Origin: Vulgatibacter incomptus
Lineage (GTDB): Bacteria > Myxococcota > Myxococcia > Myxococcales > Vulgatibacteraceae
Length of the DNA stretch: 64,000 bases
Direction: 5' to 3'
NCBI RefSeq assembly: GCF_001263175.1
Contig: NZ_CP012332.1
Span: 1,048,001 to 1,112,000, forward strand
This document shows positions 5,378 through 37,751 of the stretch, in pieces. The position numbers and the translations under genes are program-made. Each line of letters opens with the position of its first letter. Position 1 is the stretch's first letter. Under the pieces are notes generated by a model. The model worked only from the letters and a program-made list of their open reading frames with translations. It had not been told where the DNA came from and made no database searches.

Positions 5378-7852
5378 ATGAAGGGCGACCGGCCAGACCC
5401 GGGATCGCCTCACGTGGCGGGCGCCGCGCCAGAGCCCGGGAGCGATCCCGGGGGCGCAATGTCTTTCAGGGCGGCGCCTGTCACGCGGGTGCGGCGCGCG
5501 CTGCGGATCGCCCTCCTGGGCGCGGCGGAGGGAGCGCTCGTCTGCGTGGTGATGGCGGCGGGATTCGTCGCGCTTCCTCTCCCGGGCGACCTGCTTCGCC
5601 GCGACGAGTTCGTGTCCATATCGTTCACGGATCGTGAAGGTGGGATCCTCCGCGAGCTTCGCTCGAGCGAGGACGGCCGGGCGACGCCGCTGCCCGGCGG
5701 CAGGGTGCCGCCGCTCGTCCGCGCGGCCTTCCTCGCCGCGGAGGATCGGCGCTTCGACCGGCATCCCGGCGTAGACCCGCTCGCGCTCGGACGGGCCGCG
5801 CTCCAGAACCTCCGGGCGGGAAGGGTCGTGAGCGGTGCTTCGACTCTGACCCAGCAGCTCGCGCGGCGCCTGGTGCCAAGGCCTCGGACCTTCGTGGGCA
5901 AGATGGGCGAGGCGCTCTGGGCGATCCGCCTCCACCTGCACCTTCCGCGGGAGGCGATCCTACGCGAGTACCTGGATCGCGTACCCCTCGGGAACTCGAC
6001 CTTCGGAGTGGAGGCGGCGGCGCAGCTCTACTTCGGCAGGACCGCAGAGCGGCTCTCCGCCGGGCAGGCGGCGCTCCTCGCCGGAATGGCGAAGTCGCCG
6101 GCGAGGCTCGATCCCTACCGTCACGACGCGCGGTCGAAGGCCCGGATGCGGGCGGTGCTGGCGCGCATGGCGGAGCTCGGCGCGCTCTCGGAGGAGCAGG
6201 CCGCCGTGGCGGCGGAGACGCCTCTCGATCTCGTCCCAGCGTCGGCGGTCTTCGAGTCGCCTCACCTCATCGCAGCGCTGTCGGGCCGGCTGCCGGCGAT
6301 GGGGCTTGGGCGTGCGGTCCGGATCCAGACGACGATCGATCCGGCGCTCCAGGCCGACGTGGAGGCGATGGTCCGGGACGAGGTCGCGGCCCTCGCCGGG
6401 CACAACGTAGGCCAGGCGGCGGTGGTGGTGGTCGACAACGCCAGCGGCGAGGTCCTCGCCTACGTGGGCTCGGCGGACTTCCTCGACGAGGAGCGCCAGG
6501 GCCAGAACGACGGCGTGCGGGCGCTCCGGCAGCCTGGGAGCGCGCTCAAGCCCTTCGTCTACGGGCGCGCGCTGGCGGACGGGAAGACGGCGGCCTCGGT
6601 CCTCTCGGACGTGGAGGTGCACCTCGCCACGCCCTCCGGCGACTACGTCCCGAAGAACTACGACCGGCGCACCCACGGCCCGGTGCGGCTGCGGACGGCG
6701 CTTGCCAGCAGCTACAATGTCCCTGCAATCCGCATCGCGGACGAGCTGGGGCCGGACCGCGCCCTCGCCACGCTGCGTGCGGCGGGCTTCGACTCCCTCA
6801 CCGGGGATCCCTCGCACTACGGCGTCGGGATCGTCCTGGGGAACGGCGACGTCACCTTGCGGGAGCTCGCTCGGGCCTATCGCGGCCTCGCGCTCGGGGG
6901 CGTCCTCCGGCCACTCGCGGACGTGCGGCGGGCATGGGACGCCGAGGGAAGGGCCCTTCCGGTCGAGCGCGAGTTGGAGGAGCGGCGTTTCCTCCCGGCG
7001 CCAGCGGTGGAGCTCCTCACCGACATCCTCGAGGACGAAGGGGCTCGCAGCCCGGGGTTCGGCCTGGACAACGCGCTCCGCCTCCCGTTCAAGGTGGCCG
7101 CCAAAACCGGCACGAGCCGCGCCTACGTGGACAACTGGACCGCGGGATACACGGCGGAGAGGACGGTGGCCGTCTGGGTGGGGAACTTCGACGGCAAGCC
7201 GATGCGCGGCGTGTCGGGGATCACGGGCGCGGGGCCGCTCTTCCGCCGCGCGATGATCCGGGCCATGCGGGGGATCCATCCGTCGCCGCTGGTGGACCGC
7301 AGCCATTTCGTCGTCGAGACGATCTGCCCGCTCTCCGGGAAGAGGGCCGGGCCTGCGTGTGAGGGGGCCATTCACGAGGTCTTCCTTCCCGGGACGGAGC
7401 CGGGCGAGACCTGCCCGATGCACCGGCTGGTTCCCGACGAGGGGCGCGTGGGCCGCGCGGCGGGGGGCGGAGAGGGCGAGCGGATGAGGCCCGCCCTCGA
7501 CGTCGGCCCGGGCTTCTACGGTTGGGCGCACGCCGAAGGGATCGCGTCGGCCCCGCTCGGCCCGGCGCGCCCGGCAGGCGACGGCACGGGGCCGCGCTTC
7601 CTCCTCCCGGCGGACGGGGACGAGTACCTGTTGGAGACCGGCATTCCGCTCGAGTCGCAGGCAATCCCGATCCGGGTCGTCGCGCCGGCCGGCCAGGCGG
7701 AGCTCGAGGTCCGCCTCGACGACGGTTCGGTCGTCCCCCTGCCTTCTTCCTTCACCGCCCGGATCCCGGCCGAGCGGGGGAGGCGGCGCTTGGAGCTCTG
7801 GGCGCGCGGGGGGGACGCTCCCCTGGCGGTCTCGCGCTTCGTGGTGCGCTGA
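5378..7852 (+). CDS. pbpC: Penicillin-binding protein 1C, bifunctional transglycosylase/transpeptidase
   Basis: Peptidoglycan glycosyltransferase (GT51) fused to a transpeptidase, anchored in the inner membrane by one helix (about residues 41-67). The GT51 part has the catalytic EDRRF motif (E122) and a STLTQQLAR signature. The transpeptidase part has SALK (S388, K391), SYN (S445-N447) and KTG (576-578). The last roughly 100 residues match the PBP1C-specific C-terminal beta domain. At 824 residues it is a normal length. Start: ATG 5378 follows the upstream TAG with no gap; ATG 5459 (Met28), closer to the membrane helix, is an alternative. Co-transcription with the alpha-2-macroglobulin gene is very likely and is the classic gene pair. 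Beta-lactam sensitivity of the enzyme is inferred from the family only. Confidence 0.95.
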   Translation: MKGDRPDPGSPHVAGAAPEPGSDPGGAMSFRAAPVTRVRRALRIALLGAAEGALVCVVMAAGFVALPLPGDLLRRDEFVSISFTDREGGILRELRSSEDGRATPLPGGRVPPLVRAAFLAAEDRRFDRHPGVDPLALGRAALQNLRAGRVVSGASTLTQQLARRLVPRPRTFVGKMGEALWAIRLHLHLPREAILREYLDRVPLGNSTFGVEAAAQLYFGRTAERLSAGQAALLAGMAKSPARLDPYRHDARSKARMRAVLARMAELGALSEEQAAVAAETPLDLVPASAVFESPHLIAALSGRLPAMGLGRAVRIQTTIDPALQADVEAMVRDEVAALAGHNVGQAAVVVVDNASGEVLAYVGSADFLDEERQGQNDGVRALRQPGSALKPFVYGRALADGKTAASVLSDVEVHLATPSGDYVPKNYDRRTHGPVRLRTALASSYNVPAIRIADELGPDRALATLRAAGFDSLTGDPSHYGVGIVLGNGDVTLRELARAYRGLALGGVLRPLADVRRAWDAEGRALPVERELEERRFLPAPAVELLTDILEDEGARSPGFGLDNALRLPFKVAAKTGTSRAYVDNWTAGYTAERTVAVWVGNFDGKPMRGVSGITGAGPLFRRAMIRAMRGIHPSPLVDRSHFVVETICPLSGKRAGPACEGAIHEVFLPGTEPGETCPMHRLVPDEGRVGRAAGGGEGERMRPALDVGPGFYGWAHAEGIASAPLGPARPAGDGTGPRFLLPADGDEYLLETGIPLESQAIPIRVVAPAGQAELEVRLDDGSVVPLPSSFTARIPAERGRRRLELWARGGDAPLAVSRFVVR

Positions 7853-21624: not shown

Positions 21625-21671
21625 CTCTCCTTGATAAGGCGCCGATGGCGGCGTTGGAAGCCCAGGGCGAA

Positions 21672-21767
21672 TGAAGAAATCGGCCCGCGGATGCGGGCCC
21701 GATTTCTTCAGCTCGCGCTTCGCGCGAGAGCGCTTCTTTTCGTTTGCTTCGCCTTCGGCTCCGCGGG
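21672..21767. repeat. Dispersed double stem-loop repeat, copy A
   Basis: First hairpin: GAAGAAATCGGCCCGC (21673-21688) pairs with 21693-21709 around loop GGAT, with one bulge. Second hairpin: CTCGCGC/GCGCGAG around TTC, followed by AGCGCTTCTTTT. A conserved tail runs to CCGCGGG. It lies between two minus-strand genes: 6 bases downstream of the lipoprotein stop and 48 bases upstream of the R3H ATPase start. A-rich before and T-rich after the first stem suits a bidirectional terminator. Copies B and C lie at 32533-32627 and 37655-37751. Confidence 0.9.
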
Positions 21768-32512: not shown

Positions 32513-32532
32513 GCTATTTTGCCCCCAGCGCG

Positions 32533-32627
32533 TGAAGAAACAGGTCCCGCAGAAGCGGGACCATTTCTTCAGCTCGCGCTTCGCGCGAGGGCGCTCGTTT
32601 CGTTTGCTCCGCCTTCGGCTCCGCGGG
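32533..32627. repeat. Dispersed double stem-loop repeat, copy B
   Basis: First hairpin: GAAGAAACAGGTCCCGC pairs with GCGGGACCATTTCTTC around AGAA (32534-32570). Second hairpin: CTCGCGC/GCGCGAG around TTC. The tail TTTCGTTTGCTCCGCC continues to CCGCGGG. It lies 20 bases upstream of the DUF924 start (minus strand) and 31 bases upstream of the divergent zinc-ribbon gene. Same orientation as copies A and C, and closest in sequence to A. Confidence 0.9.
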
Positions 32628-34477: not shown

Positions 34478-35560
34478 TCAGTGGAATCCCGTCGGCGCGA
34501 CCTCGGGGAGGATGTCGCGCTTCCAGACGCGGATGAAGCTGACGACCATCATGGACAGCATCGGACCCGCGAGAGCGCCGATCGGGCCCAGCAGATCGAT
34601 CCCGCCAAAGAGCGTGAGGAAGAGGACCAGCGGGTTGATCTGCAGCCTCGCCTTCGTGAAGTAGGGTTTCACGAAGTACTCGACCGAGCCCAGGATGATG
34701 GCGCCCCACACGAGCATGAAGATCGCGCTGAGGATCTTCCCGTTGGCGAAGAGCCAGATGGTCACGGGGACCCAGACCAGCCCGGTGCCGAGGATCGGGA
34801 TGAGGGAGAAGATGACCGCGAAGAAGGTCATCAACGCCGCCCATGTGAGGGCGTTGGGAAGCCCGACGATCCAGAAGCCGATGACCCCGAGGACGCCCTG
34901 GATCGCGGCGGTCACGAAGCTGGCGAGGAAGAGCGCTCGGAGGAGGCCGGCCATGTCGCGGAGGATCTCGGTCGTGTGTGCTTCTTCCATCGGCAGGAGC
35001 GTGACGAGGTCCTTCACCATCCGCGGCCCTTCGAGGAAGAAGTAGTACATGCCGAGGACCACCACGAACGCCTGGAGGAGGATGCGGGCGATGGAGGCGG
35101 CGGCCGACGCGAGGTGGGTCGAAAAATAGGTCGCCGTCCGGTCGAGCCCCTGCCGGAGGGTGTCCTCGAGGCCGAGGCGATCGAGCGCGGCGAGGAGCGG
35201 TGCCAGCGGCTCGCGGGTCTGCCCGGAGAGCAGCTCATGGAGCCCGCCTCGCTCGATGGCCTCCTTCCATTGCATCACGAAGTTCGCTCCGGCCTTGATG
35301 AGCAGGTAGCCGACGAAAGCGGAAGGCACGAGGATCACCAGGATGGTGACGATCGAGCTCGTGAGCGACGCGAGGGATCGACGGCCCTTCATCTTCCGGG
35401 ACAGCCACTCGTTCGCGGGCGCGATGACCGCGACCCCAGCCGCGGCGAGGAAGAGCGGGACCACGAAGGAGCTGATCGTCCAGAAGAAGGCGACGGACGC
35501 CACGAAGAAGAGGACGGCGAAGGTCGCGTCCGCCCAGCTCAGCCTTCGATCGTCGGTCAA
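34478..35560 (-). CDS. AI-2E family transporter (PerM/TqsA-like)
   Basis: A 360-residue polytopic membrane protein of the AI-2 exporter superfamily, which also includes Na+/H+ antiporters and sporulation proteins such as YtvI. Visible features are paired N-terminal helices, a long amphipathic middle segment (about 95-150), and the conserved core LIPILGTGLVWVPVTIWLF with FGGIDLLGPIGALAGP near the C-terminus. The true substrate is unknown. It lies 62 bases downstream of the ATP-grasp gene on the same strand and could belong to that cluster, for example as an exporter of its product. Convergent with DedA. Confidence 0.9.
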   Translation of the reverse strand: MTDDRRLSWADATFAVLFFVASVAFFWTISSFVVPLFLAAAGVAVIAPANEWLSRKMKGRRSLASLTSSIVTILVILVPSAFVGYLLIKAGANFVMQWKEAIERGGLHELLSGQTREPLAPLLAALDRLGLEDTLRQGLDRTATYFSTHLASAAASIARILLQAFVVVLGMYYFFLEGPRMVKDLVTLLPMEEAHTTEILRDMAGLLRALFLASFVTAAIQGVLGVIGFWIVGLPNALTWAALMTFFAVIFSLIPILGTGLVWVPVTIWLFANGKILSAIFMLVWGAIILGSVEYFVKPYFTKARLQINPLVLFLTLFGGIDLLGPIGALAGPMLSMMVVSFIRVWKRDILPEVAPTGFH

Positions 35561-35622: not shown

Positions 35623-36816
35623 TCAGGCGACGCCCCCCGACTGGAGGAGCTCGTCGATCGCCTCCTCCGACTCCGCGAGCGCCAGCGAGGAGAGGGCACC
35701 GAGAGGCACGAAATCCAACCCTTCCCGCCTGACGTCGGCGAGGCCCCGCAGGCTGAAGAGCCATGCGCGGTGGCGCCCCTCGAGGACGCCCGCTGCCCGC
35801 GCGCGCCGGAGAAGGCCCAGGGCGATGGTCCCCATGGTGAAGCGGGCGTTGAGCTCCACGATCGGGCGGAGGACCTCGGCGTCGTCGGGGCCGCGGAAGG
35901 AGAAGGCGTCCACGCCACAGGGCCCGAAGTAGCCGGCGCGGGCGGCGGCGCGGCCCAGCTTCACCGCTGCGCCCCGGAGCTCCTGCTCGAAGCCCGAACC
36001 CACGACGATCTCGCCATCCTCGATGCGTCCCCGGCTCCCCAGGTACACGCCGGACGGCGTGATCACCTGGCGCGTGGTCCCAAGGATCTCGACCTCCCCG
36101 GACGGTGCGACGTGGAGCTGGGTCGAGAGATCGACGTGGCGCTCCAGCCAGGGCTCGAGGACGGCGCCTCCCCTGCGCTCGAGCCGCGCCAGGGCGCCAT
36201 TGCCGAACGGCAGTGCACGGCCAGGCGCCGTCCCGAGCGCCATCGTCCTCTCGGCCGATTGACCTGCCCCGAGGCGACCCCTGCCGCTGCTGCCGAGCCT
36301 GGGCTTGATGGTCCACGAGCCGCGCACCCACGGGGGCAGCGAGGCGATCCACTCCGCGATCTTCTCGACGGCGACGCCGGTACGAAGCTCCAGGGGCTCC
36401 AGGATCCGGATGAGTCCCTCGAGACAGCCGGGCGAAAGCCCCAGCTCCGACGCGACCTCCTGGGCGAAGGCCTTGTCGTGGACCCGGCGCACGATCTCGG
36501 GCGCAGGCATGGCGGGTGCCGCTCCGGCGCCCCTGAGCTCGTCCCAGGCGGTCTTCGTGGAGAGCCAGGCGACGCCTCGCCCAGGCCGGGATTCCAGCCA
36601 CGGGAAGGCGGGGCCGTCGGGGCGCATGCCCAGCAAATCGGGCCAGGCTCCGGTCGGCTCCCCGAGAGAGGTCGCCGATTCTCCGAAGAGGAGGCTCCAG
36701 AGCCAGGCCGCCTCGCGGAGGATCGGGTGGAGCCGCGCGCCAGCCTTCTGAGCTCCGTTCGAGTACTCCCTCTCCTCGGCGCCGAAGTTGGGAAGCAGCA
36801 GCGGCGCCGGTGTCAC
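35623..36816 (-). CDS. ATP-grasp domain protein
   Basis: A 397-residue protein with an ATP-grasp-like C-terminal half. WTIKPRLGSSGRGRL supplies the nucleotide-binding lysine and glycine loop, and VELNARFTMGTIALGL the metal-binding Glu-x-Asn-x-Arg motif. ATP-grasp enzymes form acyl-phosphates and ligate amines or thiols, so a peptide or amide ligase role is plausible, but no substrate can be inferred. Start GTG 36816 has GAGGAG 7-12 bases upstream and overlaps the DUF455 stop by GTGA, so the two are translationally coupled. Longer readings of this frame merely run antiparallel-free through the DUF455 gene in another frame and are not coding. Confidence 0.8.
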   Translation of the reverse strand: MTPAPLLLPNFGAEEREYSNGAQKAGARLHPILREAAWLWSLLFGESATSLGEPTGAWPDLLGMRPDGPAFPWLESRPGRGVAWLSTKTAWDELRGAGAAPAMPAPEIVRRVHDKAFAQEVASELGLSPGCLEGLIRILEPLELRTGVAVEKIAEWIASLPPWVRGSWTIKPRLGSSGRGRLGAGQSAERTMALGTAPGRALPFGNGALARLERRGGAVLEPWLERHVDLSTQLHVAPSGEVEILGTTRQVITPSGVYLGSRGRIEDGEIVVGSGFEQELRGAAVKLGRAAARAGYFGPCGVDAFSFRGPDDAEVLRPIVELNARFTMGTIALGLLRRARAAGVLEGRHRAWLFSLRGLADVRREGLDFVPLGALSSLALAESEEAIDELLQSGGVA

Positions 36817-37628
36817 GGTTCGCTCCTCTCGTACGGCCGCGCGTTTCGGACGTGCTCGATCATCTCCTCCGACAGCCCGGCCCGTCTCCTCGACGGGACG
36901 TCGAACCGTCTCCCCTTGGCGCGGGCGGCGGAGAGGGGGAAGGGGACCGCCTCTCGGTAGGCCTCCACGTCGCTCTGCGCGGGATCCTTGAGGCGCGCGA
37001 GCCAGGTGGCGGCGAGCTTCACGTGGCTCTGCTCGTCGTCGTGCACGCGCTGCATCACCTTCGCGCACTCTTCGTCGCCGGCGGCACGGAAGGCGTCCCG
37101 GTAGAGCAGGCTGAAGTCGAGGTTGGCCTGCTCGAAGGTCAGCCCCACCGAGCAGAGGAAGGCGAGAGGCCCGTTGGCGCTGGCCTCGATCGCCGGCACG
37201 TGCTGCCAGAAGTAGTCGGAGAGCACGTGATCCTCGAGGCGGCTGCCGAGCGCCTCGAGGCGGGCGACGTAGAGGGCGAGGTGTTCCTGCTCGTCCGCGA
37301 GTGCGTGGAGCATTCCGCGGCGCAGCGGCGCCGGCATCTCGGGCCACCGCAGGAGCGCCCACGCGAAGAGCTCCACGGCCATCATCTCGTGGTGCGCGAA
37401 GCGGGCCAGGGTCACGGCGCGGGAGCCTTCTCCTGTGAGCTCCCCGAGGCGCGGAAGGCGTTCGCTGCCGCCCCGCATCCGGATCGACGGACCCCGCGCG
37501 GGCCGGTCGATGTGGAGGGCCGGCGCCATCGGATCGTCCAGGCGCGGGATATCCCGTGGCGAGAGGAGCTTCGACGCCAGGTCACCCGACTCGAGGATCG
37601 TCCGGCAGAGCTCGTTGACGGTCTTCAT
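36813..37628 (-). CDS. DUF455 ferritin-like diiron protein
   Basis: A 271-residue four-helix-bundle protein of DUF455 (COG2833). Candidate di-metal ligands are in the expected places: HHEMMAVE (E81 and E86), DEQEH (E113 and H116), FEQANLD (E166) and DDEQSH (E199 and H202). Related ferritin-like proteins include the tRNA hydroxylase MiaE and oxygenases that use O2; the reaction here is unknown. Start ATG 37628 was chosen because repeat copy C begins 27 bases upstream; the frame stays open through it. The first gene of a coupled pair with the ATP-grasp protein. Confidence 0.9.
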   Translation of the reverse strand: MKTVNELCRTILESGDLASKLLSPRDIPRLDDPMAPALHIDRPARGPSIRMRGGSERLPRLGELTGEGSRAVTLARFAHHEMMAVELFAWALLRWPEMPAPLRRGMLHALADEQEHLALYVARLEALGSRLEDHVLSDYFWQHVPAIEASANGPLAFLCSVGLTFEQANLDFSLLYRDAFRAAGDEECAKVMQRVHDDEQSHVKLAATWLARLKDPAQSDVEAYREAVPFPLSAARAKGRRFDVPSRRRAGLSEEMIEHVRNARPYERSEP

Positions 37629-37654
37629 TCGCGGGGGAGGATAGCGCCCCGAGC

Positions 37655-37751
37655 GTAAGAAGAAATCGCCCCCGCGATGCGGGAGCCATTTCTTCTTCTC
37701 GCGCTGCGCGCGAGAGGCGCTCTTTTTCGATTGCTCGCCTCCGGCTCGCGA
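37655..37751. repeat. Dispersed double stem-loop repeat, copy C
   Basis: First hairpin: GAAGAAATCGCCCCCGC with GCGGGAGCCATTTCTTC around GAT. Second hairpin: CTCGCGC/GCGCGAG around TGC, then AGGCGCTCTTTTTCG. The tail is GCCTCCGGCTCGCGAGA, more diverged than in A and B. It sits between divergent genes: 27 bases upstream of the DUF455 start and 53 bases upstream of the CinA-like start. The second hairpin plus T-run would stop plus-strand transcription. Confidence 0.88.

Follow-up and report, generated by a model that had tools for sequence, protein, structure and literature searches.

The question raised by this locus of Vulgatibacter incomptus is what a DUF455 protein and an ATP-grasp-like protein, encoded by two overlapping genes, may do together. 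The window, i.e. the whole stretch of 64,000 nucleotides that was analysed, belongs to a genome of 4,350,553 bases on one contig, and the features of interest are:

35623..36816, minus strand: gene of the ATP-grasp amide/peptide-ligase-like protein, 397 residues, GTG start, assigned from a structure model and fold match.
36813..37628, minus strand: gene of the DUF455 protein, a predicted ferritin-like diiron protein of 271 residues, PF04305 match of 134 bits.
36813..36816, minus strand: GTGA stop/start overlap, read from the sequence, formed by the DUF455 stop and the ATP-grasp GTG start.
34478-35560, minus strand: gene of an AI-2E-type membrane protein, PF01594 match of 163 bits.
37646-37747: repeat in front of the pair, approximately 105 bases and partly palindromic, with copies at approximately 21660-21761 and 32521-32621.

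The earlier note had identified the product of the upstream gene as a DUF455 diiron protein, and this was borne out by a PF04305 match well above the cut-off (134 bits against 34.3, residues 39-257) and by an invariant ligand set of the diiron type. In an alignment of 46 rows (45 of the 49 DUF455 matches and the window protein), E81, E86, E113, H116, E166 and E199 are found in all 46 proteins and H202 in 45 of them. In the structure model of the single protein (pLDDT 94.8) these residues are distributed, in the order E, E113xxH116, E, ExxH, over the four helices of a four-helix bundle (residues 67-94, 100-126, 154-182 and 186-213). The E, ExxH, E, ExxH arrangement is the ligand pattern of bacterioferritin and of aldehyde-deformylating oxygenase (ADO). 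With both the bundle and the ligand set in place, the protein is classified as a ferritin-like diiron protein, for which metal binding and reaction with O2 are predicted. The fold matches are also ferritin-like, with bacterioferritin, Dps and rubrerythrin among them, but distant: ADO gave a Z of 14.3 (rmsd 3.4, 189 aligned), which is approximately the chance level for helical bundles, and the best Foldseek E value was 0.09, with no close solved relative. MiaE and other diiron families were absent among the DUF455 fold matches listed.

Outside the bundle, K20, P43, R45 and R247 are invariant, and they are common also to three alphaproteobacterial DUF455 proteins whose regions contain no annotated ligase neighbour, so that the chemistry of DUF455 may not need the ligase. 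In two of these three regions, on Sphingomonas and Sinorhizobium megaplasmids (L065 and L067), the distant DUF455 gene lies directly behind a peroxiredoxin gene. Two tandem DUF455-like genes were also observed behind a putative HPr-kinase-related gene in a genome of the Acidobacteria phylum (L152, 48-3008), and similar tandem matches occur in G273 and G289.

Neither Pfam nor NCBIfam gives a match to the window ATP-grasp protein at E values up to 1, and the initial proposal of an ATP-grasp partner therefore rested on motifs. The proposal was substantiated by the AlphaFold2 model of the single protein (pLDDT 89.7, pTM 0.91), built from an alignment of 51 rows (50 of the 63 ATP-grasp matches and the window protein), and by its fold matches to amino-acid and peptide ligases. 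Foldseek placed BesA first (E 3.5e-13), and structural alignment gave:

3wvr: Z 26.5, rmsd 3.5, 335 aligned.
BesA: Z 25.3, rmsd 3.5, 342 aligned.
8ynd, a Streptomyces peptide ligase: Z 25.1, rmsd 3.7, 333 aligned.
7r8q, Staphylococcus aureus SAOUHSC_02373: Z 21.3, rmsd 4.2, 312 aligned.
PurK: Z 19.8, rmsd 3.9, 297 aligned.

3wvr, BesA and 8ynd are separated by at most 1.4 Z units and rank well above SAOUHSC_02373 and PurK, in a set where 775 of 1000 aligned chains reach a Z of at least 8; the carboxylases (PurK, biotin carboxylase) share the ATP-grasp fold at lower Z. A profile search gave BesA (E 5e-7) and SAOUHSC_02373 (7r8p, E 3e-6) as the best solved chains. Among the 51 relatives, weak NCBIfam matches were obtained to LdmS in five (best E 1.6e-5) and to BesA in one (best E 2.9e-6), with the window protein matching neither equivalog model, and six touch ATP-grasp_3, also weakly (best E 0.0025).

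K171, E221, D303, N323 and R325 are invariant in the 51 aligned proteins, and position 321 is Glu in 49 and Asp in two; these six residues are taken to be the nucleotide and Mg ligands known from ATP-grasp enzymes. Fold and conserved ligand residues together place the window protein in the ATP-grasp superfamily, as judged from model and alignment, and we read it as a probable ligase of the amino-acid/amide type rather than as a proven member of the BesA or LdmS family. Both the diiron and the ATP-grasp residues are conserved in the relatives, which had been the second point on which the earlier proposal was to be checked, besides the depth of the pairing. In four genomes (G090, G091, G092 and G180), three of them of one genus, the ligase match was seen to contain one in-frame stop (TGA or TAG).

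The GTGA overlap of the two genes was also found as initially described, with four shared bases at 36813-36816, and translational coupling is expected from it. The same 4-base overlap is present at 18 of 35 unfused loci, and at 29 of the 35 the genes are at most 30 bases apart. As to whether the pairing extends beyond close relatives, it is kept far past them. A scan of named genomes yielded 33 ligase relatives (two of which, L046 and L055, are from one isolate), and 29 of them have DUF455 directly upstream on the same strand. Two more (L053 and L062) are cut by contig ends; in their genomes the missing start of the ligase forms the end of a different contig, which also carries DUF455, so that the pair is adjacent or fused at 31 of the 33 loci. 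For L048 and L061, a search of both locus and genome found no DUF455.

Across 195 genomes of the phylum, strong DUF455 matches were found in 25 and strong ATP-grasp matches in 27, with all of the 25 within the 27 (Fisher p 1.5e-29, a value that ignores relatedness). The ‘strong’ class was set after seeing the gap in the scores, i.e. 122.8 versus 41.6 bits for DUF455 and 117.7 versus 57.6 bits for ATP-grasp. The 41.6-bit match is a partial one above the Pfam cut-off in G069, a genome with no strong ATP-grasp match, and the two genomes with the ligase only (G187 and G066) gave no DUF455 with the subfamily profile either. The genes are adjacent or fused in 21 of the 25 genomes. In G091 they lie on separate contigs, the ligase standing at the beginning of its own, and in G184, G185 and G186, of one genus, both are present and unlinked, in G185 at interior positions of a 204 kb and a 100 kb contig.

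The association was also found in two other phyla. In that of L061 (titled Eisenbacteria), the DUF455 subfamily is present in two of 47 genomes, as an operon with the ligase at L089 and fused to it in frame up to the contig end at L117. In that of L047 (titled Acidobacteria), it is present in two of 247 sampled genomes, once fused and once in an operon, the sample being centred on G199, already known to have the pair. A further 13 of the 247 contain a related lone ligase (116-154 bits); DUF455 was not found beside any of the 13, and they share no neighbouring gene in the regions inspected. In each of the three phyla, every genome found to have the DUF455 subfamily thus also has a ligase (25/25, 2/2 and 2/2 genomes). 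The pairwise distances of the two proteins are correlated (r 0.90 over 49 rows, a value uncorrected for the species tree). Three rows were dropped as copies, namely L002 and L003, which come from L040's contig, and L055, which repeats the isolate and the match of L046. A plasmid search for the ligase found none, and phage and defence libraries gave no matches.

At 11 of 46 distinct linked loci both domains are encoded in one open frame, always with DUF455 first, as in L032, L034 and L036. Mapped on a 49-row tree, the fused state requires five changes, at least four of which are forced by supported branches, so that fusion or fission happened several times. Three related loci (L035, L038 and L051) have no ATG, GTG or TTG at approximately 5920-6010, between the preceding in-frame stop and the conserved ATP-grasp start motif, and in L035 a TTG is found at the motif itself. 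The ATP-grasp protein of these loci either starts at a non-standard codon or is joined to DUF455 by a frameshift fusion.

The idea that two unrelated genes simply stayed adjacent by chance draws on the gene order common to related genomes, but it is very improbable, and already disfavoured, in the light of the repeated fusion, of the co-occurrence of the genes when unlinked and of their presence in three phyla. The module is genuine, deep and repeatedly fused.

No other gene is recurrent beside it. Of 50 loci, 44 contain the DUF455/ATP-grasp cluster, and no further gene cluster is present at more than eight. The AI-2E-type gene does begin 62 bases past the ATP-grasp stop, as previously reported, but its suggested role as an exporter of the system was abandoned: among 63 loci searched it was found only in the window and at one sister-genus locus. 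On the other side, a divergent gene whose product has MoCF_biosynth and FLAD1_M domains lies 176 bases away. The repeat designated copy C indeed lies in front of the pair, but it has 42 matches across the 4.35 Mb genome, as a MITE- or REP-like dispersed element, and was ruled out as a regulatory part of the locus. The search for nearby short precursor genes that the earlier note had recommended covered short ORFs of up to approximately 90 codons within 800 bases and returned 705 of them near 42 loci, none recurrent; for a RiPP or graspetide precursor, the widest short-ORF cluster comprised six related loci of the 42 and resembles gene fragments or other-frame translations. What holds of the earlier interpretation is the diiron and ATP-grasp types of the two proteins and their deep pairing; the exporter, the short precursor and a place for the repeat in the locus are not supported.

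Some lone homologues of the ligase have neighbours of their own. In L141, L142 and L143, which share their gene order, lone ligase relatives lie directly ahead of bchH-like, hemA-like and bchL-like genes; these three related genomes yielded no partner for the pair. A tRNA link was likewise set aside, a lone homologue adjoining a miaA-like gene in related genomes only and another a queG-like gene, with no recurrence beyond.

A close parallel among known systems is provided by BesC/BesA of the beta-ethynylserine pathway of Streptomyces, which, like the pair, combines a diiron oxygenase with a stand-alone ATP-grasp amino-acid ligase; BesA is among the best matches of the window ligase in both sequence and fold. 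BesC, which reportedly acts as the diiron oxygenase of that pathway, is said to be of the heme-oxygenase-like diiron type, with the Bes enzymes encoded within a larger cluster, whereas the oxidase of the window pair is a DUF455 protein. LdmS/SAOUHSC_02373 and 3wvq/3wvr, the latter presumably the pheganomycin ligase PGM1, are also among the nearest ATP-grasp folds, at 14-16% aligned identity, and we know of no DUF455 partner for either. In the literature searched, which covers few subscription papers, no description of the pair was found under PF04305 or COG2833, or under ferritin-like or diiron proteins with ATP-grasp, and no function assigned to DUF455. The survey of amidoligases that Iyer and colleagues published in 2009 may contain an earlier mention.

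The association of HDO-type diiron oxidases with ATP-grasp ligases is established, as seen from PMC13185094, where 1447 HDOs near an ATP-grasp ligase are counted. MboA with MboC/MboD (mangotoxin) and the HDO/ATP-grasp clusters resemble the pair in joining a diiron oxidase to ATP-grasp amino-acid ligases, but they use HDOs of IPR016084, whereas the window pair has DUF455 and consists of two genes only, often fused. HDO-cupin and ATP-grasp operons were predicted earlier to encode an oxygenase and a peptide ligase (PMC2922099), with another oxygenase family and with extra cupin and Rieske genes compared with the window pair. DUF455 appears as a fold assignment or table entry in passages of PMC4520260 and PMC6214176, and PMC8939145 mentions neither ferritin, diiron nor DUF455. 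Thus, the oxygenase plus ATP-grasp logic is already known for other diiron families, and DUF455 in that role was not found earlier in the literature searched.

Since the genes travel together and are sometimes fused, the pair probably makes or finishes one small molecule, and a self-contained two-enzyme module, in which an oxidase and an amide ligase act on the same compound, is the reading that we favour, at somewhat short of even chances. By analogy with the nearest structural relatives, which use amino acids, the ATP-grasp enzyme would activate a carboxylate as the acyl phosphate and join it to an amine, and we infer a small, amino-acid-like substrate. DUF455, with a diiron centre of the bacterioferritin/ADO type, would oxidize the same small molecule with O2, more likely as the second step and on the ligated product, because the DUF455 subfamily was never seen without the ligase and the ligase is sometimes alone. 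This order is weakly indicated, as some genomes are incomplete and the lone ligases are partly divergent. Hand-over between the enzymes may take place within a complex, which the two proteins probably form given that evolution repeatedly fused them. Linkage, fusion, co-occurrence, conserved sites and folds are computed results, on which the two chemistries, their order and the complex are proposed.

Two other readings, both rather unlikely, start from the same data. The pair might modify a macromolecule, a protein or tRNA that would receive an amino acid or amine from the ligase and be hydroxylated on this added group by the diiron protein. RimK-type ATP-grasp enzymes and MiaE-type ferritin-like hydroxylases are precedents, and a module lacking a transporter, a regulator and a precursor fits a target encoded elsewhere; but a patchy spread (25 of 195 genomes) would be odd for a core target, and the pair itself has no recurrent tRNA-modification neighbour. 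Alternatively, and at a similarly low probability, DUF455 might bind iron, scavenge peroxide or have a regulatory role, and so protect or supply its ligase partner, rather than serve as a pathway oxygenase. The bacterioferritin, Dps and rubrerythrin matches and the adjacent peroxiredoxin gene in Sphingomonas and Sinorhizobium speak for such a function, and against it the invariant K20, R45 and R247, in N- and C-terminal regions that do not belong to the bundle, suggest a bound substrate, while repeated fusion to a ligase would be unusual for iron storage.

A bolder and rather unlikely reading may also be put forward, in which DUF455 would represent a novel class of tailoring enzymes that activate O2. 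Joined to the ATP-grasp ligase in one polypeptide, it would form a minimal oxidative amide synthase, whose product in Myxococcota, Acidobacteriota and Eiseniibacteriota would be a small metabolite or cofactor not yet described. The natural single-chain fusions lend themselves to direct reconstitution in vitro, with one protein, ATP, O2 and amino-acid mixtures. The ligase partner, never seen missing and repeatedly fused, provides a concrete handle on the chemistry of the DUF455 subfamily.
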